From: Pseudomonas sp. Os17
GTDB lineage: Bacteria; Pseudomonadota; Gammaproteobacteria; Pseudomonadales; Pseudomonadaceae
Length of the DNA stretch: 64,000 nucleotides
Direction: 5' to 3'
Assembly: GCF_001547895.1 (NCBI RefSeq)
Contig: NZ_AP014627.1
Coordinates: forward strand, 2,049,501-2,113,500
The notes beneath the pieces are model-generated. The model did not search any database. It was given only the letters and a program-made list of their open reading frames with translations, and was not told where the DNA came from. This document shows, one piece after another, positions 6,809 through 19,210 of the stretch (position 1 is the stretch's first letter; each line of letters begins with the position of its first letter). Position numbers and translations under genes: made by a program.

Positions 6809-9526
6809 TCACCCAGGGACGCTGGCAGGTTGCACTGCCGCCGCCAGCAGGCGCTTGATCTCCGGCACGCAGGAGCCACATTGGCTACCGCAACCCAATT
6901 GCTGTTTCAGTTGTTCAAGGTTCAAGCCTTCAGCGACACCGGCACAGACCGCCCGATAACCAACGTTCTTGCAGTTGCACAGGGTCCGTTCCCCTGTCCC
7001 GCCCAGGCCGCCGGCTTCCGGCGGGGCGCTCATCGGCGCCAGCAGCCAGCGGCGCAGTTGCTCATCGGCGCGGCCTTCGAGCCACAACTGCTGCAACCAG
7101 TGCTGGGCCAGGGTTTCCCCGGCCAGTCGGATCGCGGTGATCCGTCCTTGTTCGATACGCACGCGCTTGCCGATGGCTCGGCGCGGATCGTCGTAGGCCA
7201 GGACCGGCCCACCTTCCAGCCCCAACTGCTGGTCGATCAGCTTGAGCAATGCCGGCTGCGGCGCCTCCTGGTGGGCGGCGCGGATCACCAGGGCCGGACG
7301 CTCGCGACCGCTCAGGCTGAAGCTGACATAGGCAAAGGCTTCGCACAGGGGTCGCAGAACCTTGAAGTGGGCCTGTACCCCGCCTTCGATCAGGGCGAAC
7401 AACTGCCAGGGCAACTGCACCGGTTCCAGGCGCACGCCGCTGTGCTTGAGCTCCGGCTGTTTTGACAGGGGATCGAAGGCCGGTTGAGTCACGGCGTTGA
7501 CCCCGCCCTTGAGGAAGCGATCGCCCCAGTGCATCGGCAGGAACGCCTGGCCGGGGCGCACGCCGTCATCACTGGCGACGGCGACAATCACAGCGCCACG
7601 CCGACTTTTCAGGCTCACCAGATCGCCCTCGCGCAAGCGTTGCCGGCGCAACTCGTCCGGGTGCAGGCTCAGCAGCGCCTCGCTGACGTGGCCAAACAGT
7701 TGCGCCGCAGTGCCGGTGCGACTCATGCCGTGCCACTGGTCCCGCAGCCGGCCGGTGATCAGGGTCAGAGGGAAACGCGCGTCTCGCTGTTCCTTGGCGG
7801 CCACATAGGGATCGGCGATAAAGCGTGCACGGCCAGAGGCGGTGGGAAACACGCCGTCGCCATACAAGCGTGGCGTGCCCTGTGTCGCACCGGCGGGAAA
7901 GGGCCATTGCTGCGGGCCGAGGCGGTCGATCAGGTGGTGACTGAGGCCGGACAGATCCAGATCGCGGCCCTGAGTCAGGCCTTTGTACTCATCGAACAGC
8001 TGGGCCGCGCAATTGAAGTCAAACAGGCTCGGCTGGCCGGGACGCAGGCGGCGCTCCAGGCGTTGGGCGAAGTCCAGGGTAATGGCCCAGTCGGGCCGCG
8101 CCTCGCCGGGCGCGGGCACCGCCTGGCGCACGTGAGAAACCCGGCGTTCCGAGTTGGTCACCGTGCCTTCTTTCTCCCCCCAGCTGGCAGCGGGCAGCAG
8201 CAGGTCGGCAAAGGCCGCGGTTTCCGTGGTGGCAAAAGCTTCCTGCAGGACCACGAAAGGGCAGGCTTGCAGCGCCGCTCGCACCGTATTCTGGTCCGGT
8301 AGCGACTGCGCCGGGTTGGTGCAGGCGATCCACAGGGCCTTGATCCGCCCACTGCGCAATTGTTCAAACAACTCGATGGCGCTCAACCCGGGGCGTGCGG
8401 GCAACTGCTCCACGCCCCAGTAGGCGGCGACTTCTGCGCGATGCTCGGGATCGGTGGCCTCCCGGTGCCCGGGGAGCAGGTTGCTCAGGCTGCCGGTTTC
8501 GCGCCCGCCCATGGCATTGGGCTGACCGGTGAGGGAGAAGGGGCCGGCGCCGGGGCGGCCGATCTGCCCGGTGGCCAGGTGCAGATTGATCAGCGCGCTG
8601 TTTTTTGCGCTGCCGGCGCTGGACTGATTCAAACCCATGCACCACAGGGACAGAAAACTCGTCGCGTTGCCGATCCATTGCGCGCATTGCTGCAATTGTT
8701 CGACGCTGATCCCGCACAGCTGCGCCACCATCGGCGGGGTGTAGTCGCGGACCAGGGCCTTGAGCTCGGCCAGGCCCTCGGTGTGCTCGCGGATGAAGTC
8801 GCGGTCGATCCAGTCTTCCCACAGCAGTAAATGGAGGAGGCCGTGGAACAGGGCCACGTCGGTGCCGGGCAGGATCGCCAGGTGCAGGTCGGCCAGGTCG
8901 CAGGTATCGGTGCGACGCGGGTCGATCACCAGCACTTTCATCTGCGGGCGCCGGCTTTTGGCCTGTTCCAGGCGTCGGAACAGCACCGGATGGGCGTAGG
9001 CCATGTTGCTGCCGACGATCATCACGCAATCGCTCAGTTCCAGGTCCTCATAGCTGCAGGGCGGTGCATCGGCCCCCAGGCTGCGCTTGTAGCCCACCAC
9101 CGCCGAGGACATGCACAGCCGCGAATTGCTGTCGATGTTGTTGGTGCCCACCAGGGCCCGGGCCAGCTTGTTGAAGGCGTAGTAGTCCTCGGTCAGCAAC
9201 TGCCCGGAGATGTAGAACGCCACGCTGTCCGGGCCGTGCTCGGCGATGGTTTGGGCAAATACCCCGGCGGCATGTTCCAGGGCGCTGTCCCAGTCACAGC
9301 GGCTGCGGGCCAGATCCTTGCCCAGGCGCAGCTCCGGGTACAGGGCGCGGGCACCGGGGTCGCCGGTCAGGTGCAGGCTGGCGCCCTTGCTGCACAGCTT
9401 GCCGAAGTTGGCCGGGTGCGTCGGATCGCCGCTGACTCCGAGGATCTGCCGGCCGTCATGCTCGATCAGCACGCCGCAGCCGACTCCGCAGTAGCAACAG
9501 GTCGAGGCCGTGCTCTGGCGCGACAT
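6809..9526 (-). CDS. nasC: Assimilatory nitrate reductase catalytic subunit
   Basis: 905-residue cytoplasmic molybdopterin enzyme reducing nitrate to nitrite. The N-terminus holds the [4Fe-4S] ligands (CCYCGVGC at 10-17 and GKLCSKG further on), followed by molybdopterin-dinucleotide domains (SNMAYAHPVLFRR, DPRRTDTCDLADLH, WGEKEGTVTNSERR). The C-terminal extension has a BFD-like [2Fe-2S] domain (CNCKNVGY ... CGSQCGSCVPEIKRLL), as in NasA/NasC enzymes that take electrons from a separate reductase. No NasB-type reductase gene is adjacent. Its ATG overlaps the nirD stop by one base (TGATG), implying translational coupling; an upstream in-frame ATG (9595) lies inside nirD and is rejected. Confidence 0.93.
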   Translation of the reverse strand: MSRQSTASTCCYCGVGCGVLIEHDGRQILGVSGDPTHPANFGKLCSKGASLHLTGDPGARALYPELRLGKDLARSRCDWDSALEHAAGVFAQTIAEHGPDSVAFYISGQLLTEDYYAFNKLARALVGTNNIDSNSRLCMSSAVVGYKRSLGADAPPCSYEDLELSDCVMIVGSNMAYAHPVLFRRLEQAKSRRPQMKVLVIDPRRTDTCDLADLHLAILPGTDVALFHGLLHLLLWEDWIDRDFIREHTEGLAELKALVRDYTPPMVAQLCGISVEQLQQCAQWIGNATSFLSLWCMGLNQSSAGSAKNSALINLHLATGQIGRPGAGPFSLTGQPNAMGGRETGSLSNLLPGHREATDPEHRAEVAAYWGVEQLPARPGLSAIELFEQLRSGRIKALWIACTNPAQSLPDQNTVRAALQACPFVVLQEAFATTETAAFADLLLPAASWGEKEGTVTNSERRVSHVRQAVPAPGEARPDWAITLDFAQRLERRLRPGQPSLFDFNCAAQLFDEYKGLTQGRDLDLSGLSHHLIDRLGPQQWPFPAGATQGTPRLYGDGVFPTASGRARFIADPYVAAKEQRDARFPLTLITGRLRDQWHGMSRTGTAAQLFGHVSEALLSLHPDELRRQRLREGDLVSLKSRRGAVIVAVASDDGVRPGQAFLPMHWGDRFLKGGVNAVTQPAFDPLSKQPELKHSGVRLEPVQLPWQLFALIEGGVQAHFKVLRPLCEAFAYVSFSLSGRERPALVIRAAHQEAPQPALLKLIDQQLGLEGGPVLAYDDPRRAIGKRVRIEQGRITAIRLAGETLAQHWLQQLWLEGRADEQLRRWLLAPMSAPPEAGGLGGTGERTLCNCKNVGYRAVCAGVAEGLNLEQLKQQLGCGSQCGSCVPEIKRLLAAAVQPASVPG

Positions 9527-9843
9527 CACCCGGCATCCCGCAGGATCAGTTGCACCCGGCCAGCTTCCACCCGTGCCTGATGCCGGTGGGCACAACCGAT
9601 GTCCGGTGCCTGGGCCTCGCCGGACTCCAGGTCGATCTGCCAGTTGTGCAGGGGGCAGGCCACGCGCTTGCCGTAGATCAGCCCCTGGGACAGCGGGCCG
9701 CCCTTGTGCGGACAGCGATCGTCCAGGGCGAAGACCTGATCGTCGCCGGTACGAAAAATCGCGATATCGCCCCGGGGCCCCTTGATCACGCGTGAGCCCA
9801 GGGCATTGATCTCTTCCAGGGCGCAGATATCCAGCCAGTTCAT
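9526..9843 (-). CDS. nirD: Nitrite reductase small subunit NirD
   Basis: 105-residue Rieske-fold subunit of NAD(P)H-dependent nitrite reductase; partner of NirB. The cluster ligands of a true Rieske protein are all present: C44-P-H46 and C63-P-L-H66. The E. coli NirD has the fold but lacks these ligands, so this version may carry a [2Fe-2S] centre. The start ATG overlaps the nirB stop (ATGA), and the stop overlaps the nasC start, so the operon is tightly coupled. A much longer overlapping reading frame that ends at the same stop runs antiphase through nirB and is not coding before this ATG. Confidence 0.93.
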   Translation of the reverse strand: MNWLDICALEEINALGSRVIKGPRGDIAIFRTGDDQVFALDDRCPHKGGPLSQGLIYGKRVACPLHNWQIDLESGEAQAPDIGCAHRHQARVEAGRVQLILRDAG

Positions 9844-12293
9844 GCCGGCACCTCCAGTTGTTTCACGGGGATCGATTCGTACTCTTTTTTCAGCTGCGGC
9901 TCGGCCAGGCGCTGTTGCCATGGGTCCTGCTCGAAGGACAGGGCGAACTGCAAGCGCTCGTTCAGTGCCTTGCGCCGCTCGGGGTCCTCCAGCACGGCCT
10001 TTTTCACGTGCTCCATGCCGACCCGTTGCAGGTAGTGCACGGTGCGTTCGAGGTAGAAGGCTTCTTCGCGGTACAGCTGGAGGAACGCGCCGTTGTACTC
10101 GCGCACCTCTTCGGCGGTCTTGAGCTTGACGAAAAACTGCGCCACCTCGGTCTTGATCCCGCCGTTGCCGCCGATGTACATCTCCCAGCCGGAATCGACG
10201 CCGATGATCCCGACGTCCTTGATCCCGGCTTCCGAGCAGTTGCGCGGGCAGCCGGACACCGCCAGCTTGACCTTGTGCGGCGACCACATGTTGAACAGGT
10301 CGTGCTCCAGCTCGATGCCCAGCTGGGTGGAGTTCTGCGTGCCGAAGCGGCAGAACTCGCTGCCGACGCAGGTCTTCACGGTGCGGATGGACTTGCCATA
10401 GGCGTGGCCGGACGGCATGTCCAGGTCCTTCCAGACCCCGGGCAAGTCCTCCTTGCGAATGCCCAGCAGGTCGATGCGCTGGCCGCCGGTGACCTTGACC
10501 ATGGGCACCTGGTACTTGTCGGCCACGTCGGCGATGCGCCGCAGTTCGGAGGGATTGGTCACCCCGCCCCACATCCGCGGCACCACCGAATAGGTGCCGT
10601 CCTTCTGGATATTGGCGTGGGCCCGTTCGTTGATCAGCCGCGATTGCGGATCGTCCCGGGCTTCCCCCGGCCAGGTGGAAATCAGGTAGTAGTTCAGCGC
10701 CGGGCGGCAAGTGGCGCAGCCGTTGGCGGTGCGCCAGTTGAGGTAGCTCATGGTGCTGGCGATGGTCAGCAGGTGCTGCTCGCGGATCGCCTGGCGGATC
10801 TGCCCGTGGTTCAGGTCGCTGCAGGCGCAGATGGCTTTTTCGCTTTTCGGCTTGACGTCCGCCGCGCCGCCCACGGTATTGATCAGGATCTGTTCCACCA
10901 GGCCGGCACAGGAGCCGCAGGAGCTGGCGGCCTTGGTGTGTTTCTTGACCTCGTCGACGCTGAACAGCCCCTGTTCCTGGATGGCCTTGACGATGGTGCC
11001 CTTGCACACCCCGTTGCAGCCGCAGACTTCGGCGCTGTCGGTCATGCTCATGGCCTTGTCCTGGCCCTGATGGCCGACATCGCCCAGCGCCTGCTCGCCG
11101 AACATCAGGTGATCGCGGATTTCGCCGATGGCGTGCTGCTCGCGGATCTGCCGGAAGTACCAGCCGCCGTCCGCGGTGTCGCCATACAGGCAGGCGCCCA
11201 CCAGCACGTCGTCCTTGATCACCAGCTTCTTGTACACCCCGCCAATGGGGTCGGCGAGGGTGATTGTTTCGGTGCCGTCGCCGCCCATGAAATCCCCGGC
11301 GGAAAACAGATCGATGCCGGTGACCTTCAACTTGGTCGAGGTCACCGAGCCCTGGTAGCGGGCGAAGCCCAGCTGGGCCAGGTGATTGGCGCAGACCTTG
11401 GCCTGTTCGAACAGCGGCGCCACCAGGCCGTAGGCGATGCCGCGGTGGCTGGCGCACTCGCCGAGGGCGTAGATGCGCGGGTCGAAGGTTTGCAGGGTGT
11501 CGTTGACCAGGATCCCGCGGTTGCACGGCAGGCCGGCCCGTTCCGCCAGCTCGGTGTTGGGGCGGATCCCGGCAGCCATCACCACCAGGTCGGCGGGGAT
11601 GATGTCGCCATTGTTGAACTGCACCGACCCGACCCGGCCGTTGCCGGCATCGATCAGCGCCTGGGTCTGCTCGCTCAGGCGGAATTTCAGGCCTCGGCTT
11701 TCCAGGGCGCTCTGCAGCAACTGGCCGCTGGTCTGGTCCAGTTGCCGCTCCAGCAGCCACTGGCCAATGTGCACCACGGTCACGTCCATGCCCCGCAGCT
11801 TGAGGCCGTTGGCGGCTTCCAGGCCCAGCAGGCCGCCGCCGATCACCACCGCGTGCTGGTGGGTCCTGGCGGCGTCGATCATGGCCTGGGTGTCGGCGAT
11901 ATCGCGGTAGCCGATCACGCCCTGCAGGTCCTTGCCGGGAATCGGCAGGATAAAGGGCGTGGAACCGGTGGCGATCAGCAGGCGATCGTACTCGGCTTGG
12001 CTGCCGTCGTCGGCGATCACCCGGCGCTTGATCCGGTCGATTTCCACCACCTTGCGATTGAGCAGCAGCTTGATGTTGTGCTCCAGGTACCAGTCCAGGT
12101 CGTTGAGGACGATGTCCTCGAACGTCTGCTCGCCAGCCAGCACCGGTGACAGCAGGATGCGGTTGTAATTGGTGTGGGGCTCGGCGCCGAACACGGTGAT
12201 GTCGTACAACTCGTCGCTCAGCTTGAGCAGTTCTTCCAGGGTGCGGACCCCGGCCATGCCGTTGCCGATCATCACCAGTTTGAGTTTTTTCAT
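9840..12293 (-). CDS. nirB: NAD(P)H-dependent nitrite reductase large subunit NirB
   Basis: 817-residue siroheme enzyme reducing nitrite to ammonium in the cytoplasm. Order: FAD-binding Rossmann domain (GNGMAGVRTLEEL at the N-terminus), NAD(P)H-binding domain (VVIGGGLLGLEAANGL), BFD-like [2Fe-2S] region (CGCNGVCKG and CGSCAGLV), a second Cys cluster (CACSDLNHG and CATCRPALNYY), then the sulfite/nitrite reductase domains with siroheme-[4Fe-4S] ligands CVGSEFC and CPRNC. Length is close to the E. coli enzyme. First gene of nirB-nirD-nasC-cobA. A 160-nt leader with ANTAR hairpins, a terminator and a sigma-54-like promoter precedes it, so expression should require nitrogen limitation plus nitrate or nitrite. 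Confidence 0.95.
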   Translation of the reverse strand: MKKLKLVMIGNGMAGVRTLEELLKLSDELYDITVFGAEPHTNYNRILLSPVLAGEQTFEDIVLNDLDWYLEHNIKLLLNRKVVEIDRIKRRVIADDGSQAEYDRLLIATGSTPFILPIPGKDLQGVIGYRDIADTQAMIDAARTHQHAVVIGGGLLGLEAANGLKLRGMDVTVVHIGQWLLERQLDQTSGQLLQSALESRGLKFRLSEQTQALIDAGNGRVGSVQFNNGDIIPADLVVMAAGIRPNTELAERAGLPCNRGILVNDTLQTFDPRIYALGECASHRGIAYGLVAPLFEQAKVCANHLAQLGFARYQGSVTSTKLKVTGIDLFSAGDFMGGDGTETITLADPIGGVYKKLVIKDDVLVGACLYGDTADGGWYFRQIREQHAIGEIRDHLMFGEQALGDVGHQGQDKAMSMTDSAEVCGCNGVCKGTIVKAIQEQGLFSVDEVKKHTKAASSCGSCAGLVEQILINTVGGAADVKPKSEKAICACSDLNHGQIRQAIREQHLLTIASTMSYLNWRTANGCATCRPALNYYLISTWPGEARDDPQSRLINERAHANIQKDGTYSVVPRMWGGVTNPSELRRIADVADKYQVPMVKVTGGQRIDLLGIRKEDLPGVWKDLDMPSGHAYGKSIRTVKTCVGSEFCRFGTQNSTQLGIELEHDLFNMWSPHKVKLAVSGCPRNCSEAGIKDVGIIGVDSGWEMYIGGNGGIKTEVAQFFVKLKTAEEVREYNGAFLQLYREEAFYLERTVHYLQRVGMEHVKKAVLEDPERRKALNERLQFALSFEQDPWQQRLAEPQLKKEYESIPVKQLEVPA

Positions 12294-12352
12294 GGGCTTC
12301 TCCGGGGCCAGGCAGGTTCAGTGGGGCCTGGCTCGACAAACTGCGCGCAAAC

Positions 12353-12392
12353 AAAAAAGGCGTCCCGTCAGTGGCCTGACGAGGACGCCTTT
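12353..12392 (-). terminator. Leader terminator upstream of nirB
   Basis: On the minus strand a hairpin of 16 pairs (10 outer pairs, 12356-12365 with 12383-12392; six inner pairs, 12366-12371 with 12376-12381; one bulged base at 12382) is followed by a run of T. It ends 60 nt before the nirB ATG, inside the transcript leader, so it would stop transcription before nirB unless prevented. Confidence 0.9.
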
Positions 12393-12398
12393 GTCCGA

Positions 12399-12438
12399 TC
12401 CCGTTCTCTCGGGAAGCCGGCCTTCGTCGTTGAAGGCC
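12399..12438 (-). promoter_or_regulatory. ANTAR (NasT) target hairpins in nirB leader
   Basis: Two tandem hairpins on the minus strand just before the leader terminator. The first has stem GGCCTTC/GAAGGCC and loop AACGAC (12419-12438); the second has stem TCCCG/CGGGA and loop AGAGAA (12399-12414). Both loops are six bases with A at 1 and G at 4, the signature recognised by ANTAR antiterminators such as NasR and NasT. The linker is four bases. NasT is encoded at 16158-16733. Confidence 0.85.
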
Positions 12439-12465
12439 AGGCTTGATGTCTGTTGCCTGATGTCA

Positions 12466-12481
12466 TGCAGCGCTTGTGCCA
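12466..12481 (-). promoter_or_regulatory. Sigma-54-type -24/-12 promoter of nirB
   Basis: Reads TGGCAC-N5-CTGCA on the minus strand, one mismatch to the TGGCAC-N5-TTGC(A/T) consensus. The predicted start is about 12455, 17 nt before the first ANTAR hairpin. This fits NtrC/RpoN control of nitrogen assimilation; no clear NtrC site was recognised upstream. Confidence 0.75.
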
Positions 12482-12631
12482 GGTTGTCGAGGGCGCGGTT
12501 TTATCGGGCCCTGGTGACGATTCTGTGCCGACCGAGTCCGGCTGGCGCACCGAATCGAGGCGTCACGCCCTCTTTCGGCTCTTTGCGGCGGCTGTTGGGT
12601 GGGGGATCGCCAGGCAAGTCCTGCGGAGCTT

Positions 12632-12809
12632 TTCGCAGCCTCGCTTTGGCTCGACAGCGGCTACACCAGCTGCCAATGCTGAAGGGGTTTGGGTAGTTTC
12701 GCAGCCTCGCTTTGGCTCGACAGCGGCTACACCAGCTGCCAATGCTGAAGGGGTTTGGGTAGTTTCGCAGCCTCGCTTTGGCTCGACAGCGGTTACACCA
12801 GCTGCCAAT
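12632..12809. repeat. Tandem 66-bp repeat, 2.7 copies
   Basis: Copies begin at 12632, 12698 and 12764; the first two are identical to the eye and the third has at least one change (C to T in GGCTACACC) and stops at 12809, just before a run of nine G (12811-12819). The unit starts TTCGCAGCCTCGCTTTGG, resembling half of a Pseudomonas REP. Because 66 is divisible by three, it keeps reading frames open on both strands (22-residue repeats), but these are not believable genes. Confidence 0.9.
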
Positions 12810-12820
12810 AGGGGGGGGGT

Positions 12821-12847
12821 AGCCGCTGCCGCAGGCTGCGAACGGCT
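12821..12847. repeat. REP element
   Basis: AGCCGCTGCCGCAGGCTGCG and following bases form the imperfect palindrome typical of Pseudomonas REP sequences. It closes the 66-bp repeat array on the side of the kinase gene. The stretch 12482-12925 otherwise shows no gene. Confidence 0.7.
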
Positions 12848-12925
12848 CCGCAGGAGGCGTAGGTGGGGCTGAGGAGGCTGGAGGTTATCGGGAGATTGAA
12901 AGGTTGTGCCCGCCCCCTGGTGGCG

Positions 12926-14596
12926 TCAGCGATGCAGCAGGGCCAGCAGCCACATCAGGTTCAGCAGCAGGGCGAGCAGGGCGATGCCTCGCCAGACCTT
13001 CAGCGGCTCCCGTTCCAGCCAGGGCCGCGGGCGGGGGCTCAGGCTGCGGCGTTCACCCTGTTCCAGCGCCAGCAGCCATTCTTCCGCCGTTTCATAGCGC
13101 TGGGCGGGGTCGGCACAGACTCCGCGTTCCAGGCTTTGCTCCAGCCATTCCGGCAGGTCCGGGCGATAGCGGCTGGGAGGCACCGCGGCGCCGAAGCGCG
13201 GGCGCTGGAAGGCTTCGATCTCGCCGTGGGGGTAGTGCCCGGTCAGCAGGTAATACAGGCTGACGCCCACCGCATAGAGGTCCTGTTGCGGGCTCGGAGG
13301 TTCGCCGGTGAAGGCTTCCGGGGCGATGTAGCCCGGGGTGCCGGGCAGCAGGTGCGCCGGGTCCGCCGACAAGCCCGGGCAGTAGGCCAGGCCGAAATCC
13401 AGAATCCGCAGTTCGCCGTCGTCCCCCAGCAGCAGGTTGTCCGGCTTGATGTCGCGATGCAGGATCTGCCGCCGGTGCAGCAGGCCAACGGCCCGCAACA
13501 GGCGCTCGGCCAGGGATTGCCACTGGTCCAGTGGCAAAGGGCCGCTGTGGCGAAACAGCTGTTGCAGGGTGCGCCCGGGGTATTCGCGCATCAGGTAATA
13601 CAGGTGCTGGCGCGCCGTGCCGCCGTGCACCTGGGGAAAGTGCCGCCCGGCCACGCGGCGCAGCAGCCACTCCTCGGAGAGCAACCCCTGGCAGGCCGCC
13701 CGGTCGTCGTGCAGGGCCGCCGGCAGGGTTTTCAGCAGCCAGGCCTGTTGCTGTTCGTCACGCACCCGATACAGCAGCGCTTGCCGGCTGTGGTTGAGCA
13801 GTGCCTCGACCTGCCAGCCCTCGAACTGCTGCCCCGGTTTCAGCGGCGGTGGCAGGGGCCATTGCCGCAGGTGCAGCAGGGCATCGCCAATGCTGCGTTC
13901 CCCCAGTGCGTCGACCCGCACCAGCAGTGCGCTGGCATTGTCCTGGCTGCCGGCCAGGTGCGCGGCACTGACCAGGGTGGCCACCGCGCGGTCCAGGTCC
14001 GGCTGGTCGCGCAGGATGGCGGCGATGGCGCTGTCGCCCAGGGTGGCCCAGACGCCGTCGCTGAGCATCAGGAAGCATTCGCCCTGGCGCAGTTCGCCAT
14101 CGAGAAAATCCACCACCAGGTGCTGGTCCAGGCCCAGGGCGCGCTTGAGCACATGCTGCATGCCCGGTTGCTCCCAGACATGGTCCTGGCTGATGCGTTG
14201 CAGTTGCTGCTGGTGCCAGCGATAGACCCGGCAGTCGCCGACATGGGCCAGGGTGAAGCGCTGCCCTCGCAACACCAGGGCGCTGAGGGTGGTGAGCAGG
14301 GGCTGGCCGCCGCCATTGGCCTGGAGCCAGCGATTCTGCGCGCTCAGCAGGCGTTCCAGGGCTTCGGCCACGGCCCAGGTCTGCGGGGTGGCGTAGTAGT
14401 CCAGGGCCAGGGCCTGCAGGCTGGAACGCGCGGCGAGGCCGCCATCGGCACATTGGCTGACGCCATCGGCGATGGCGAACAGCAGTCCTTTGCTGGCGGC
14501 CAGCTCCGGCGCCGGGGTGACCCGGCGCAGGGCGTCCTGGTTCTCCGCCCGCGGGCCGCTGGCGCTGGCCTCGGCGTGGCTCAGTTGCAGGCCCAT
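12926..14596 (-). CDS. PP2C phosphatase - Ser/Thr kinase fusion, membrane-anchored
   Basis: 556 residues. N-terminal PP2C-type phosphatase (about 1-235: ENQD 18-21, ADGV 43-46, HVGDCR, LMLSDGVW, GSQDNASALLV) joined to a Hanks-type kinase (about 265-520: WLLK beta-3 lysine, HRDIKPDN with catalytic D382, DFG 400-402, APE 425-427), then a basic linker and one C-terminal transmembrane helix (536-554), with both domains predicted cytoplasmic. Catalytic residues appear intact in both halves, so it may phosphorylate and dephosphorylate proteins. It lies seven bases after nasA and before nirB; P. aeruginosa carries a kinase gene in the same place. The substrate is unknown; nitrate uptake or NasT signalling are obvious guesses. 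ATG 14596 avoids overlap with nasA. Confidence 0.88.
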   Translation of the reverse strand: MGLQLSHAEASASGPRAENQDALRRVTPAPELAASKGLLFAIADGVSQCADGGLAARSSLQALALDYYATPQTWAVAEALERLLSAQNRWLQANGGGQPLLTTLSALVLRGQRFTLAHVGDCRVYRWHQQQLQRISQDHVWEQPGMQHVLKRALGLDQHLVVDFLDGELRQGECFLMLSDGVWATLGDSAIAAILRDQPDLDRAVATLVSAAHLAGSQDNASALLVRVDALGERSIGDALLHLRQWPLPPPLKPGQQFEGWQVEALLNHSRQALLYRVRDEQQQAWLLKTLPAALHDDRAACQGLLSEEWLLRRVAGRHFPQVHGGTARQHLYYLMREYPGRTLQQLFRHSGPLPLDQWQSLAERLLRAVGLLHRRQILHRDIKPDNLLLGDDGELRILDFGLAYCPGLSADPAHLLPGTPGYIAPEAFTGEPPSPQQDLYAVGVSLYYLLTGHYPHGEIEAFQRPRFGAAVPPSRYRPDLPEWLEQSLERGVCADPAQRYETAEEWLLALEQGERRSLSPRPRPWLEREPLKVWRGIALLALLLNLMWLLALLHR

Positions 14597-14603
14597 GACG
14601 TGC

Positions 14604-15815
14604 TCAGACTCGTGCCGCGGTGACGGCGGCGGAGCCCCAGGTGGTTCTCCAGCGGCGCTTGACCCCATGCAGGCCGAACCAGGCCAGGACTCCGAGGCTG
14701 GCGAACAGCCACAGGGCCAGTTGGTAGCTGCCGCTGCTCTGCTTGATGGCGCCCATGCCCGCGGCCAGGGCGAAACCGCCGATGCCCCCGGCCATGCCGA
14801 TCAGTCCGGTCATGACCCCGATTTCCCGGCGAAAGCGCTGCGGCACCAGTTGAAACACCGCGCCATTGCCCGCGCCCAGGCCCAGCATGGTGCAGACGAA
14901 CAAGGCCAGTGCGGCGTAGGAACTGGGCAGGTTGAAACCCACGGCAGCGATGCACACCACGGCCACGCCGTACATCGCCAGCAAGGTGCGGATGCCGCCG
15001 AAGCGGTCGGCCAGGGCGCCGCCCAGGGGGCGCATCAGGCTGCCGCCGAAGACGCAGGCGGCGGTGTAGTAGCCGGCGGTCACCGGGCTCAGGCCGTACT
15101 GGTCGTTGAAGTAGCCGGGCAGGGCGCTGGCCAGGCCGATGAAGCCGCCGAAGGTCACGCTGTAGAAAAACATGAACCACCAGCTGTCACGGTCGCCCAG
15201 GGCCTTGAAGTAGTCGCCCATGGACTTGGCGCGAGGGCGCTCGGGAGCGTTTCGCGCCAGCCAGGCGAACAGCGCCAGGGTCAGGATCAGCGGGATCAGG
15301 GCGAAGCCGAAGACATTGCTCCAGCCGAAAGCCGCCGCCAGCAGCGGGGCGATCAGGGCGGCGAACACGGTGCCGGAGTTGCCGGCACCGGCGATGCCCA
15401 TGGCCTTGCCCTGGTGTTGCGGTGGATACCATTGCGAGGCCAGGGGCAGGGCCACTGCGAAAGAAGCACCGGCCATGCCGAGGAACACCCCCAGCAACAA
15501 TGCTTGTTCATAGCTGTGGATGCCCAGTTTCCAGGCCACGAACAGGGCGCCGATGACTATCACCTGGCCGATCAGGCCGGCGGTTTTCGGTGACAGGCGG
15601 TCGGCCAGCAGGCCCATGATGAAGCGCAGCACCGCACCGGCGAGGATTGGCGTCGCCACCATCAGGCCGCGTTGCTGGGTGCTCAGGTGCAGATCGGCGG
15701 CGATCTGCACCGCCAGAGGGCCCAGCAGGTACCAGACCATGAAGCTCAGGTCGAAATACAGGAAGGCTGCAAACAGGGTCGGGGTATGGCCGGATTTCCA
15801 GAAGCTTGAATTCAT
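14604..15815 (-). CDS. nasA: Nitrate/nitrite MFS transporter (NarK/NasA family)
   Basis: 403-residue inner-membrane transporter of the NarK/NasA nitrate-nitrite porter group, about 12 transmembrane helices. Typical blocks include GLLADRLSPK after TM2-3, the nitrate signature-like GAGNSGTVFAALIAPLLAA and GAGNGAVFQLVPQRF in the two halves, and PLGGALADRFGG. It imports nitrate for the cytoplasmic NasC and NirBD enzymes. ATG 15815 has a GAGGTG ribosome binding site; the much longer upstream frame covers leader RNA and is rejected. The 342-nt space to nasT contains its own sigma-54-like promoter and ANTAR hairpins, so nasA and the kinase fusion probably form a separate transcription unit. Confidence 0.92.
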   Translation of the reverse strand: MNSSFWKSGHTPTLFAAFLYFDLSFMVWYLLGPLAVQIAADLHLSTQQRGLMVATPILAGAVLRFIMGLLADRLSPKTAGLIGQVIVIGALFVAWKLGIHSYEQALLLGVFLGMAGASFAVALPLASQWYPPQHQGKAMGIAGAGNSGTVFAALIAPLLAAAFGWSNVFGFALIPLILTLALFAWLARNAPERPRAKSMGDYFKALGDRDSWWFMFFYSVTFGGFIGLASALPGYFNDQYGLSPVTAGYYTAACVFGGSLMRPLGGALADRFGGIRTLLAMYGVAVVCIAAVGFNLPSSYAALALFVCTMLGLGAGNGAVFQLVPQRFRREIGVMTGLIGMAGGIGGFALAAGMGAIKQSSGSYQLALWLFASLGVLAWFGLHGVKRRWRTTWGSAAVTAARV

Positions 15816-15911
15816 CGCGCACCTCAGCTGATAGGGGTCGTTGGAGCCGTCATGAGCTTGCAGGTGGAGCGCCGTGCAGCCGCGCCACCGGCCCCGTTCA
15901 GTGGGGCCAGA

Positions 15912-15973
15912 ACGACAAAGACGTCGGCGTCCGGCTCGCGGTGGGCGAGCAGGGCGCGCGACGTCTTTGTCGT
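15912..15973 (-). promoter_or_regulatory. 15-bp inverted repeat in nasA leader
   Basis: Perfect 15-bp inverted repeat ACGACAAAGACGTCG (minus strand, 15959-15973) pairing with 15912-15926 across a 32-nt GC-rich interior. The upstream arm contains the whole second ANTAR hairpin, so the two structures exclude each other. No long U-tract follows, so whether the long stem terminates transcription is unclear; a second GC-rich hairpin (15890s-15907) lies next to it. Confidence 0.7.
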
Positions 15974-15998
15974 AGGTGGGCAACCGCCGTTGGTTACC
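15959..15998 (-). promoter_or_regulatory. ANTAR (NasT) target hairpins in nasA leader
   Basis: Minus strand: first hairpin GGTAACC/GGTTGCC (one G-U pair) with loop AACGGC (15979-15998); six-base linker; second hairpin CGAC/GTCG with loop AAAGAC (15959-15972). Both hexaloops have A1 and G4. The arrangement matches the nirB and nasS leaders. Confidence 0.75.
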
Positions 15999-16013
15999 GT
16001 CGTGGATTTGAAA

Positions 16014-16028
16014 GCAAGAGCCGAGCCA
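16014..16028 (-). promoter_or_regulatory. Sigma-54-type promoter of nasA
   Basis: Minus strand TGGCTC-GGCTC-TTGCTTT: the invariant GG and GC are present with correct spacing, one mismatch (A to T) in the -24 box. The predicted start is near 16002, about four bases before the first ANTAR hairpin. Confidence 0.75.
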
Positions 16029-16064
16029 ACCGGCGGCCATGTTGGCTGGCATGGGCAGGCTCGC

Positions 16065-16147
16065 TGTAGGAGCTGGCTTGCCAGCGAAGGCGCCCTCAAG
16101 ACTGGCACAAGGTTCAGAGGCCTATTCGCCGGCAAGCCGGCTCCTAC
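16065..16147. repeat. REP pair (BIME-like) after nasT
   Basis: Two inverted REP-like copies: CTGTAGGAGCTGGCTTGCCA at 16065 and its mirror TTCGCCGGCAAGCCGGCTCC ending at 16147, separated by about 33 nt. They lie 3' of nasT and 5' of the nasA promoter, and could stabilise or end the nasS-nasT message. Confidence 0.8.
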
Positions 16148-16157
16148 GGGGCGCAGG

Positions 16158-16733
16158 TCAGCCCAGCAGTTCCTGCATGGCGATGATCTGTTCCGCCACC
16201 TGGATCAGTTTCTGCTGCCTGCTCATGGCCTGGCGGCGCATCAGGGTGTAGGCCTGTTCTTCGTCGCAGTCCTTCATTTTCATCAGCAGGCCCTTGGCCA
16301 GTTCGATGCGCTTGCGTTCGGCCAGTTGCTGGTCCCGGGCCTGGAGTTGCGCGCGCAGGGCCTGGTCGCTTTCAAAGCGCGCCATGGCCACGTCGAGGAT
16401 GGGTTGCAGGCGCTGGACCTGGATGCCTTCGACGATATAGGCGCTGACCCCGGACTTGATTGCCTGGCGCATCACCCCCGGGTCGTGCTCGTCGGTGAAC
16501 ATCACGATGGGCCGGGGCTGGTCGCGGCTGACCAGCACCACTTGCTCCATGACGTCGCGGCTGGGTGACTCGGTATCGATCAGGATCACGTCCGGACGCA
16601 CTGTTTCGACGCGTCCGGGCAGATCGATGGTCAGGCCGGATTCGTCGATCACCTCGAAGCCGGCCTCGCTCAGAGCAGCCTTGAGCCGGCCGACTTTCTT
16701 CGCGGTGTCGTTGATCAGCAGGATACGCAGCAT
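16158..16733 (-). CDS. nasT: NasT, ANTAR-domain antitermination regulator
   Basis: 191 residues: response-regulator-like receiver domain (about 1-120, phospho-acceptor position D53 in LIDTE) followed by a coiled linker and a C-terminal ANTAR RNA-binding domain (about 125-185; ERKRIELAKGLLMKMKDCDEE begins it, AYTLMRRQAM is the core helix). In NasS-NasT systems NasT binds dual-hexaloop RNA and lets polymerase pass a leader terminator; NasS holds it inactive without nitrate. Its probable targets are the three leaders in this window. Fifteen bases after nasS, same operon. Confidence 0.94.
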   Translation of the reverse strand: MLRILLINDTAKKVGRLKAALSEAGFEVIDESGLTIDLPGRVETVRPDVILIDTESPSRDVMEQVVLVSRDQPRPIVMFTDEHDPGVMRQAIKSGVSAYIVEGIQVQRLQPILDVAMARFESDQALRAQLQARDQQLAERKRIELAKGLLMKMKDCDEEQAYTLMRRQAMSRQQKLIQVAEQIIAMQELLG

Positions 16734-16748
16734 GGTGGCGGGCTCCGG

Positions 16749-17960
16749 TCAGCGCTGGGCGACAAGGGACGGTGAGTCGTTGAGGGCGTGCAGGCGGAAG
16801 CTGCGGGCATAGGCGGCAGGCTGTGAACCGTCCCAGACCTTGCCGTCGATCAGTTGGCTGCTGCGCATGTCCTGGCCCCAGGCGGCGATGCCCAGCGCGC
16901 CGGCGGCTTCGCGGTACAGCTCCAGCTGTTGCACCTGGCGCGCGACGCCGAGGTAGTCCGGGTCCTCGCGCAGCAGGCCCCAGCGGCGGAACTGGGTCAT
17001 GAACCACATGCCGTCGGACAGGTAGGGCAGGTTGACGGTGCCGTGCTGGTGAAAGCGCAGGGCATGAGGGTCCTGCCAGCGATTGCCCAGGCCGTCGGCG
17101 TAGTCCCCCAGCAGTCGCGGTTCGATGCAGGCCAGCGGGGCATTCAGGTAGTCGGCGGCGCTCAGGAGCAGGGCTGTGCTGCGGCGGTTTTCCGGACTTT
17201 GCTCGATGAAGCGGCTGGCTTCTAGGATCGCCATCACCAGGGCGCGGGCGGTGTTGGGGTATTGCTCGACGAAGGCGCGGGTGCAGCCGAGGACCTTTTC
17301 CGGGTGGTCGGGCCAGATCGCCTGGCTGGTGGCCAGGGTGAAGCCCAGGTCCTGCTGCACCGCGCTGGCGCTCCACGGCTCGCCGACACAGAAACCGTCG
17401 ATGCGCCCGGCCTGCAGGTGGGCGACCATCTGCGGCGGCGGCACCACCACGCTGTCGACATCCTGCAGCGGGTGGATGCCCTGGCTGGCCAGCCAGTAGT
17501 AGAGCCACATGGCGTGGGTGCCGGTGGGGAAGGTCTGGGCGAAGGTCAGGCGCGCCCGGCTTTGGTGCACGTGGCGGTCGAGTGCTTCAGGGCTGGTCAC
17601 CTTGAGGGCCTGCAGCTCGCGGGACAGGTTGATGCTCTGGCCGTTCTGGTTCAGGCCCATGAGCACCGCCATGTCGCAGTGGCTGGTCCCGCCGATGCCC
17701 AGGTGCACCGCGTAGATCAGGCCGTACAGGCTGTGGGCGGCATCCAGTTCGCCGCTCACCAGCTTGTCCCGCAGGCTGGCCCAGGAGCTCTGGCGCTTGA
17801 GGTTCAGGGTCAGTCCGTAGGGCTGGGCGAAGCCCTGGGTGGCGGCGACCACCACCGAGGCGCAATCGGTCAGGGCCATGAAGCCCAGGTCGATGGCGGA
17901 CTTTTCCGGGGCATCGCTGCCGTTGACCCAGGCCAGCGGGGTGTTTGGGCGTTCAGTCAT
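16749..17960 (-). CDS. nasS: NasS, nitrate/nitrite sensor
   Basis: 403-residue cytoplasmic relative of the nitrate-binding proteins NrtA/NasF (CmpA/NrtA family), without a signal peptide. Recognisable blocks are LGFMALTDCASVVVA, SLYGLIYAVHLGIGG, DGFCVGEPWSA and GMWFMTQFRRWG. In characterised systems NasS binds NasT and releases it when nitrate or nitrite binds. The start is ATG 17960 with an AAGGTG ribosome binding site; the longer upstream frame runs through a leader terminator and is not used. Leads nasS-nasT. Confidence 0.92.
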   Translation of the reverse strand: MTERPNTPLAWVNGSDAPEKSAIDLGFMALTDCASVVVAATQGFAQPYGLTLNLKRQSSWASLRDKLVSGELDAAHSLYGLIYAVHLGIGGTSHCDMAVLMGLNQNGQSINLSRELQALKVTSPEALDRHVHQSRARLTFAQTFPTGTHAMWLYYWLASQGIHPLQDVDSVVVPPPQMVAHLQAGRIDGFCVGEPWSASAVQQDLGFTLATSQAIWPDHPEKVLGCTRAFVEQYPNTARALVMAILEASRFIEQSPENRRSTALLLSAADYLNAPLACIEPRLLGDYADGLGNRWQDPHALRFHQHGTVNLPYLSDGMWFMTQFRRWGLLREDPDYLGVARQVQQLELYREAAGALGIAAWGQDMRSSQLIDGKVWDGSQPAAYARSFRLHALNDSPSLVAQR

Positions 17961-17977
17961 GACGGGGCACCTTGCAT

Positions 17978-18028
17978 AAAAAAGCGTCGTACCCGCGGGC
18001 CGGGCCAAGCCCGCGCAGGTGACGACGC
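17978..18028 (-). terminator. Leader terminator upstream of nasS
   Basis: Minus strand: stem GCGTCGT/ACGACGC (18022-18028 with 17984-17990) enclosing a strong GC hairpin, followed by six T's (17983-17978). It ends 18 nt before the nasS ATG. Confidence 0.85.
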
Positions 18029-18063
18029 CGTTGTCCTTGAGCCCGGGCCGCCATTGGCTCGGG
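18024..18063 (-). promoter_or_regulatory. Candidate ANTAR (NasT) hairpins in nasS leader
   Basis: Minus strand: first hairpin CCCGAGCC/GGCCCGGG (one A-C mismatch) with loop AATGGC (18042-18063); six-base linker; second hairpin GAC/GTC with loop AACGGC (18024-18035). Both loops have A1 and G4. The second stem shares five bases with the 5' arm of the following terminator, so forming it would weaken the terminator. The second stem is short, hence reduced confidence. Confidence 0.65.
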
Positions 18064-18071
18064 TTTGATGC

Positions 18072-18086
18072 GCAAAAGGGGTGCAA
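18072..18086 (-). promoter_or_regulatory. Possible sigma-54-type promoter of nasS
   Basis: Minus strand TTGCAC-CCCTT-TTGCG: correct spacing and a good -12 box, but the first G of the -24 GG is T. The predicted start (about 18060) falls at the 5' edge of the first ANTAR hairpin. Confidence 0.45.
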
Positions 18087-18145
18087 GGCATATGCCATTG
18101 CCGGGGATTTGCTTGTGCGCCTCGCCTGCAAGCCCCGGGCGCGGC

Positions 18146-18151
18146 TATAAT
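18146..18151 (+). promoter_or_regulatory. Consensus -10 box before pyrD
   Basis: TATAAT 40 nt before the pyrD ATG; no convincing -35 hexamer at 17 bp. It lies in the divergent nasS-pyrD space. Confidence 0.5.
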
Positions 18152-18190
18152 CGGCGGCCAATTTCGCCGCCAACCGAGTTCATCCCGCCC

Positions 18191-19210
18191 ATGTATACCC
18201 TGGCCCGCCAGCTGCTGTTCAAACTCTCCCCGGAAACCTCCCACGATCTGTCCCTGGACCTGATCGGTGCGGGCGGGCGTTTGGGGCTTAACGGTCTGCT
18301 GTGCAAGGCGCCGGCCCAGTTGCCGGTCAAGGTCATGGGCCTGGAGTTTGCCAACCCGGTGGGTCTGGCCGCCGGCCTGGACAAGAACGGTGCGGCCATC
18401 GACGGCTTTGCCCAGCTGGGTTTCGGTTTTGTCGAGATCGGCACCGTCACCCCGCGTCCGCAGCCGGGCAACCCCAAGCCGCGGATCTTCCGCCTGCCCC
18501 AGGCCGAAGCCATCATCAATCGCATGGGCTTCAACAACCTGGGGGTCGATAACCTGCTGTCGCGAGTTGCCGCTTCGTCATACAAGGGCGTGCTGGGGAT
18601 CAATATCGGCAAGAACTTCGATACCCCGGTGGAGCGGGCGGTGGACGACTACCTGATCTGCCTGGACAAGGTCTACGCCCATGCCAGCTATGTCACGGTC
18701 AACGTCAGCTCGCCCAACACGCCGGGGCTGCGCAGCCTGCAATTTGGCGAGTCGCTCAAGCAGCTTTTGGCGGCCCTGAGCCGGCGCCAGCAGGAGCTGG
18801 CGGTTATCCACGGCAAGCGGGTGCCGCTGGCGATCAAGATCGCTCCGGACATGAGCGATGAAGAAACCGTGGAAGTGGCCCGGGCCTTGCTGGAAACCGG
18901 CATGGATGCGGTGATCGCCACCAACACCACCCTGAGTCGCGAAGGCGTCGAAGGCCTGGAGCATGGTGATGAGGCGGGCGGCCTGTCTGGCGCGCCGGTG
19001 CGCGACAAGAGCACCCATACGGTCAAGGTGTTGGCCGCAGAGCTGGCCGGCCGTTTGCCGATCATTGCCGTGGGCGGCATCACCGAAGGCAAGCACGCGG
19101 CTGAGAAAATCGCCGCGGGTGCCAGCCTGGTGCAGCTGTATTCGGGCTTCATCTATAAGGGCCCGGCGTTGATTCGCGAGTCGGTGGACGCTATCGCGGC
19201 CATGGGCTGA
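18191..19210 (+). CDS. pyrD: Dihydroorotate dehydrogenase (quinone), class 2
   Basis: 339-residue FMN enzyme oxidising dihydroorotate to orotate in pyrimidine synthesis, passing electrons to ubiquinone at the inner membrane. The N-terminal amphipathic helix ([22 protein letters not shown]) is the class 2 membrane/quinone element. Catalytic-core blocks: [47 protein letters not shown] (active Ser region), TNTTLSR, IAVGGI and [12 protein letters not shown] 18191 is chosen because it gives the standard N-terminus; longer in-frame starts overlap the nasS leader. Confidence 0.95.

Follow-up and report, generated by a model that had tools for sequence, protein, structure and literature searches.

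The window analysed, a 64-kb stretch (64,000 nucleotides) of the Pseudomonas sp. Os17 genome, carries a nitrate assimilation cluster (6809-18173); PMC3973561 places this operon in P. protegens Cab57 and CHA0 and reports it absent from Pf-5. All genes and leader elements described here lie on the minus strand and are given in window coordinates. The sensor gene nasS (16749..17960; Pfam NMT1_2, 5.4e-95), for nitrate/nitrite, was named by its relatives and its neighbourhood, and the ANTAR antiterminator gene nasT (16158..16733) by its ANTAR domain (Pfam, 5.1e-17), with the response-regulator domain of the protein scoring slightly below the Pfam cut-off (28.7 of 30.2 bits). nasA (14604..15815, with its ATG at 15815) encodes a NarK-type MFS nitrate transporter (Pfam MFS_1, 1.4e-46), which reached 308.2 bits against the NCBIfam NarK family, slightly below the cut-off of 311.7. 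Directly downstream lies a gene for a PP2C phosphatase / Ser-Thr kinase fusion (12926..14596; Pfam PP2C_2 and Pkinase, scanned from 14668). The first ATG of this frame is at 14668; the preferred ATG, at 14596, lies 7 bases past the nasA stop codon (14604-14606), and no clear ribosome-binding site was seen at it. This short distance makes co-transcription with nasA likely, so that the nasA leader probably controls both genes. A 66-bp unit repeated 2.7 times (12631-12809, 99% match) separates the kinase gene from the nirB leader.

Architecture of the nasA leader

Upstream of nasA, a sigma-54-type -24/-12 element (TGGCTC-N5-TTGC, 16028-16014) was recognized by its sequence, and from its position the transcript is expected to start near 16002. 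It is followed by hairpin P1 (GGTAACC-AACGGC-GGTTGCC, 15998-15979), with 7 bp and the loop AACGGC, and by hairpin P2 (CGAC-AAAGAC-GTCG, 15972-15959), with 4 bp and the loop AAAGAC, which has the A1 and G4 of the ANTAR type. P2 is contained in the 5' arm (15973-15959) of a perfect 15-bp inverted repeat, the 3' arm of which (15926-15912) stands where relatives have the terminator U-run. Further 3' lies a GC-rich hairpin (GGCCCC-N7-GGGGCC, 15908-15890), with no T-run after it; this hairpin is present in many relatives and absent in L007, L075 and L116. Over 188 nt, the leader has a predicted fold of -99.4 kcal/mol, 6.1 sd below its own shuffles. An earlier note, made from the letters alone, had described the promoter-like element, the two hairpins and the repeat across P2, had assigned the leader to the ANTAR type and had extended its control to the kinase/phosphatase fusion. 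All of the parts were found, on the minus strand, and the assignment is borne out below; the extension is probable, given the gene order.

No other perfect 15-mer inverted repeat whose arms are 3-45 bases apart occurs in the 64-kb window, which rules out a chance origin. An assembly error was likewise ruled out, as an independent genome, G353 (leaders L113 and L155), has the identical repeat and two other genomes carry an intermediate. The mir-2057 model reached 27.5 bits at 15911-15975, where its cut-off is 100; this match was rejected as a by-product of the repeat.

A scan of 12200-18200 for sigma-70 promoters found none (0.5 expected). In P. stutzeri, an ntrC mutant shows a strong fall of nasS, nasT and nasA (PMC8443478). 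In a P. putida rpoN mutant, nasA is still up about 12-fold under nitrogen limitation (PMC7801951), which counts against a pure sigma-54 start. From nasT to the nasA promoter, the DNA (16040-16155) looks palindromic and REP-like by eye, and several relatives have inserts at this place that are similar in look, but different. Within 15822-15890, the ribosome site GAGGTG before nasA pairs in the predicted fold with an upstream CACCT; control of translation through a masked nasA ribosome site is possible on the basis of this fold.

The Rfam narK family and the other NasT-type leaders of the cluster

At 16027-15958, the nasA leader aligned with the full 72 positions of the Rfam narK RNA model (RF03032) and scored 73.5 bits (E 6.7e-12), against a gathering cut-off of 43.2. 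Like the Os17 leader, RF03032 precedes a NarK-type transporter gene. Its consensus begins with GGCaCAgcucUUGC, the sigma-54 element itself, which thus falls in the first third of the model; judged by the expected start, this third would be DNA upstream of the transcript. The family draws P1 only and leaves its conserved 3' end, ACGACAAAGACGUCGC, which is P2, unpaired, and it stops short of the terminator arm that is altered in Os17. The nasA leader thus belongs to a known family whose drawn structure shows only part of the switch. The model RF00625, aligned at 12493-12359, also includes the sigma-54 element as though it were RNA.

Among 298 congeneric genomes, RF03032 was found at E <= 0.001 in 267 and above the cut-off in 261, and no match was found in 31. 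In an order-level draw of 244 genomes, it was found in 23 at E <= 0.01. Ten of these exceed the cut-off, and 5 of the ten, Os17 included, are of the same genus. In three more distant genomes (L126, L127 and L129), RF03032 scored below the cut-off (29.6-33.3 bits), and a sigma-54-like element, ANTAR-like hairpins and a T-run stand before a gene that opens with MSYLMPSEFATKMV or a close variant; we take this gene to encode a formate/nitrite-type transporter. Similar leaders precede a gene resembling nirB by eye in L124 (50.9 bits) and a gene without assigned identity in L143 (34.1 bits). Among the literature matches listed, none stated a function for the Rfam narK RNA or linked it to ANTAR proteins or NasT, though an earlier description is quite possible.

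The leader fits the published definition of ANTAR dual-hairpin leaders: two hairpins of at least 3 bp, both with six-base loops bearing A1 and G4. A GC-rich stem overlaps P2 in the predicted fold, and a cognate ANTAR protein, NasT, is encoded beside the leader. The same two-hairpin definition describes the eut, nasF and amiE leaders, in which P2 overlaps the terminator stem (Ramesh et al. 2012, PMC3369931). In contrast to these, P2 of the Os17 nasA leader lies wholly within the off-stem, and the Os17 lineage has lost the U-run: directly after the stem stands TCTTTGTCGTTCT. In Paracoccus denitrificans, NasT binds the nasA leader RNA in gel shifts, and nitrate or nitrite frees NasT from NasS (PMC3795266); that RNA is likewise a nasA leader, in another genus, and is likened here by description. 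In P. putida, deletion of nasT abolishes growth on nitrate (PMC7261876), and nasA is among the genes listed as putatively under nasT control (PMC7801951). The narK gene of Bradyrhizobium has a predicted NasT-type hairpin before it, yet its expression is up in a nasT mutant (PMC6759348), so NasT-type hairpins do not prove NasT control.

The earlier note had counted the nasA leader as the second of two in the cluster; there are three such leaders, before nirB, nasA and nasST. The nirB leader (12359..12493; Rfam RF00625, P11), which stands where the literature puts NalA, shares with the nasA leader the cluster and the sigma-54 element but differs in its loops (AACGAC and AGAGAA), in its terminator and in its intact U-run; NasT antitermination has been reported for it (PMC3973561, PMC12830290). 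The nasST leader (17978..18097) begins with a sigma-54 element (TGGCAT-N5-TTGC, from 18097), followed by a P1 with the loop AATGGC (18064-18041), a P2 with the loop AACGGC (18035-18024) and a terminator ending in T6 (17983-17978); against RF03032 it scored 33.5 bits, below the cut-off. A pattern search of the genome for further NasT targets gave 11 places, against 8 with the reversed pattern as control; of the 11, the nirB, nasA and nasST leaders look real by eye.

The regions upstream of nasS were compared at 84 loci (77 of the 80 named loci, Os17 and 6 others). The sigma-54 element was found in 84/84, the P2 motif in 78/84 and five or more consecutive T in 76/84. P1 in its strict form (at least 3 unbroken pairs) together with all other parts was found in 36/84; with one mismatch allowed, P1 had at least 5 pairs in 54/78. 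In an alignment of this P1, from which 4 of 58 rows were dropped as misplaced, the remaining 54 rows showed changes on both sides in 8/9 pairs and a covariation score of 0.336, against 0.149 in shuffled and at most 0.098 in slid alignments, though no more than 78.2% of the cells are paired and a single pair is broken in 32/54. Five of the named loci (L084, L085, L086, L098 and L107) lack the P2 motif upstream of nasS and keep the sigma-54 element. NasT-type hairpins in this leader predict that NasT feeds back positively on its own operon, and such autoregulation would be present in most of the relatives examined; among the literature matches listed, none stated autoregulation through the nasST leader.

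Conservation of the hairpins and the alternative stem

For comparison of the nasA leader, one genome per species was used, and the best 80 of 577 loci from a NasA protein search, all titled Pseudomonas, were kept. The leader core was collected at 120 loci, Os17 included, with some genomes represented twice; 79 of the 80 named loci are among them, and 96 of the cores are unique. An upstream element TGG[CT]-N7-[TC][TCG][GC]C was present in 117 of the 119 loci tallied (one of the 120 cores was left out).

Covariation of the stems, put forward in the earlier note as a check, was found for P1, in which 5/7 pairs are changed on both sides and 97.1% of cells are paired (10 distinct rows), with a score of 0.527 against 0.240 in shuffled and at most 0.222 in slid alignments. 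P2 is nearly invariant: in the 96 unique cores, three of its four pairs never change and the fourth is broken in one core, with no compensatory change, so that covariation speaks neither for nor against its pairing. The P2 loop is AAAGAC at 112 of the 120 loci, AAAGGC at 5 and GAAGAC at 3, with G4 in 120/120 and A1 in 117/120. In the three GAAGAC loops (L040, L071 and L117, of which L040 and L117 are apparently one genome), the ANTAR A1 is replaced by G, and the off-stem pair is apparently kept as G-C. At L038, outside the 120-locus set, the P2 loop is AACGAC.

In the predicted off fold, 11-14 of the 15 bases of the P2 region pair with the downstream arm in 96/96 unique cores, Os17 included. 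Matched changes within this off-stem were A-U to G-C at q+8 in 4 cases and at q+4 in 2, and G-C to U-A at q+13 in 1. The off fold of the Os17 leader is predicted at -57.1 kcal/mol, against -37.7 kcal/mol with P2 forced; across 17 leaders, the off fold is ahead by 12.8-19.7 kcal/mol (Os17, 19.4). The either/or between P2 and a long stem, proposed earlier for Os17, is thus upheld by the predicted folds, which make it general to these leaders and not special to Os17. A search of 57 relatives with the inner-stem pattern, which is clade-specific, matched only the genome of Os17 itself.

Loss of the U-run and the predicted off-state of the switch

In the relatives, the downstream arm ends in GCGGCG or GCCGACG and is followed by TTTTTTCGTTTT or similar; by its sequence, the same stem is there an ordinary intrinsic terminator, and the T-run after it is also able to pair, as RNA, with the AAAG of P2. 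Five or more consecutive T follow the stem in 97 of 102 unique leaders, the exceptions being Os17, L113 (of G353), L033, L036 and L105. FD6 and LD120 (L034, L035) have the arm GCCGACG followed by TTTTTTCGTTTT and keep the U-run; Au-Pse12 and Fl4BN1 (L033, L036) have an intermediate form, GCCGACG followed by TCTTTTCGTTTT; Os17 and L113 have GCCGACG followed by TCTTTGTCGTTCT, with which the arm becomes fully complementary to the P2 arm. The perfect 15-bp repeat occurs in 2 of 398 genomes, that of Os17 itself and G353. The earlier note's statement that no standard U-tract terminator follows is correct for Os17, while the suggestion drawn from it, an off-state of different design, is not supported as put: the same stem in relatives ends in a U-run, and the repeat reflects a loss of that run in one lineage. 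In kind the leader is ordinary, an ANTAR-type member of the Rfam narK family; what is unusual about it, the repeat, is this lineage-specific loss. A simple terminator scan reported only a weak 5-pair site (15932-15919) at the repeat, and over 6 kb gave 5 sites, where shuffled sequence would give 3.4; as the scan allows loops of 8 bases at most, the long stem is invisible to it.

In a tree of nasA and nasT (28 rows), Os17 and L113 group with support of 100/97, are joined by Au-Pse12 (100/99) and adjoin FD6 and LD120 (99/99), with Fl4BN1 outermost, at a fork of only 90/83, within a six-member clade (100/100). According to this tree, the final form of the repeat would predate the split between the species of Os17 and G353, the nasA genes of which are about 4% divergent. 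The first T-to-C change, shared by Au-Pse12 and Fl4BN1, would either be older and have been reversed, or have happened twice.

The U-run was graded by a U score of the d'Aubenton-Carafa type. Os17 and L113 score 3.14, tied second lowest of 102 unique leaders (median 4.81); only L105 scores lower, at 3.10. Elsewhere in the Os17 cluster, the nirB leader scores 4.99 (median 5.40, 56 loci) and the nasST leader 4.52 (median 5.14, 77 loci), and in G353 both of these leaders keep T6. In Os17 and G353, the loss of the U-run is specific to the nasA leader. L105 was ruled out as a second case of arm matching, as its fold shows plain U-run loss, and it is apparently a separate loosening of NasT control. 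L105 and L036 have low U scores in both their nasA and nasST leaders; no nirB leader was located for L105.

At the same time, the stems of Os17 and L113 are the strongest. Off-stem energies over 94 unique leaders are lowest in L113 (-52.7 kcal/mol) and Os17 (-45.5 kcal/mol), against a median of -32.8 kcal/mol, and the two share the longest uninterrupted helix of 96, with 15 pairs, while the other 94 have 8-13. Across the 94 leaders, the stem tends to be stronger where the U score is weaker (Spearman 0.46, with no correction for kinship); such a trade-off is only suggestive, as the pairing of the U-run is itself counted in the stem energy.

Strong stems can offset weak U-runs. The switch of Os17 might accordingly work in full, its longer stem making up for the poor U-run, with termination in the absence of NasT as tight as in relatives and control by NasT unchanged. 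This would fit the second most stable stem of 94, the record helix shared with the sister, the correlation just described and the retention of the repeat in both Os17 and G353. We regard it as rather unlikely: the stem core is followed by TCTTTGTCG only, full pairing leaves TCTGG after the stem, and the correlation is partly built in.

The preferred reading, which we hold to be likely, is that the Os17 leader represents nasA in the regulon of NasT (ANTAR) leaders of Pseudomonas and that, with its terminator U-run lost, it has a leakier off-state. Under nitrogen limitation, NtrC and sigma-54 would start the nasA leader transcript near 16002. With nitrate, NasT released by NasS would bind P1 and P2 and hold P2; the long stem would then be blocked, and transcription would continue through nasA and on into the kinase gene. 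When no NasT is free, the long stem would take up P2 instead. In Os17 and its nearest sister, base changes would have swapped the U-run for a longer stem, giving the perfect 15-bp repeat, so that in the off-state a poor U-run would follow a very stable stem and termination would be weaker. With the U-run gone, release of the polymerase should be less efficient, and nitrogen limitation alone, without nitrate, would leave both nasA and the kinase gene partly on. The off position of the Os17 nasA switch is thus probably weaker or differently working, and both genes are probably less strictly nitrate-dependent than nirB or nasST.

A further alternative, in line with the different off-state mechanism suggested in the earlier note, is that the long stem acts after U-run termination or without it, for example by being cut by RNase III, by stopping transcription with the help of Rho or by making the polymerase pause. 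Its 15 perfect pairs and the GC-rich inner stem without a U-run would suit such a role, as would the preservation of the stem over the roughly 4% divergence of nasA. Relatives with a U-run share the stem, though, and need no new explanation there, which leaves this alternative improbable. We hold it equally improbable that the ANTAR attenuator has given up intrinsic termination at a U-run and now relies on the stem alone, through RNase III, Rho or pausing, with the sister species halfway.

The preferred reading has also to account for a stem that was lengthened, rather than for a mere loss of T; template switching between the arms or selection for a stronger stem would either of them do. Template switching during replication (quasipalindrome correction) could have perfected the repeat with no selection on the RNA. 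We consider this a tentative possibility; it concerns the origin of the repeat and is compatible with a leakier off-state. One G gained relative to the Au-Pse12 leader completes the arm, which the T-to-C change of Au-Pse12 had already extended, and PMC8794818 holds that RNA stems can arise and be repaired by template switching. Along the tree, however, the changes look stepwise and not like a single event, and L105 lost U-run bases in another pattern, with no like extension of the pairing. A point against the preferred reading is that the repeat is unchanged over about 4% nasA divergence, which, together with an additional stem-strengthening change in L113, could point to selection for the long stem, not decay.

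For the family as a whole, the analysis ties the Rfam narK RNA to the NasT/ANTAR system in Pseudomonas, with a model that spans the promoter and misses the second hairpin. Within it, FD6 and LD120, Au-Pse12 and Fl4BN1, and Os17 and L113 form a natural series in which the U-run is lost while the stem grows. With this series, it becomes possible to test directly how stem and U-run are traded against each other and whether the transporter needs to be controlled by nitrate.
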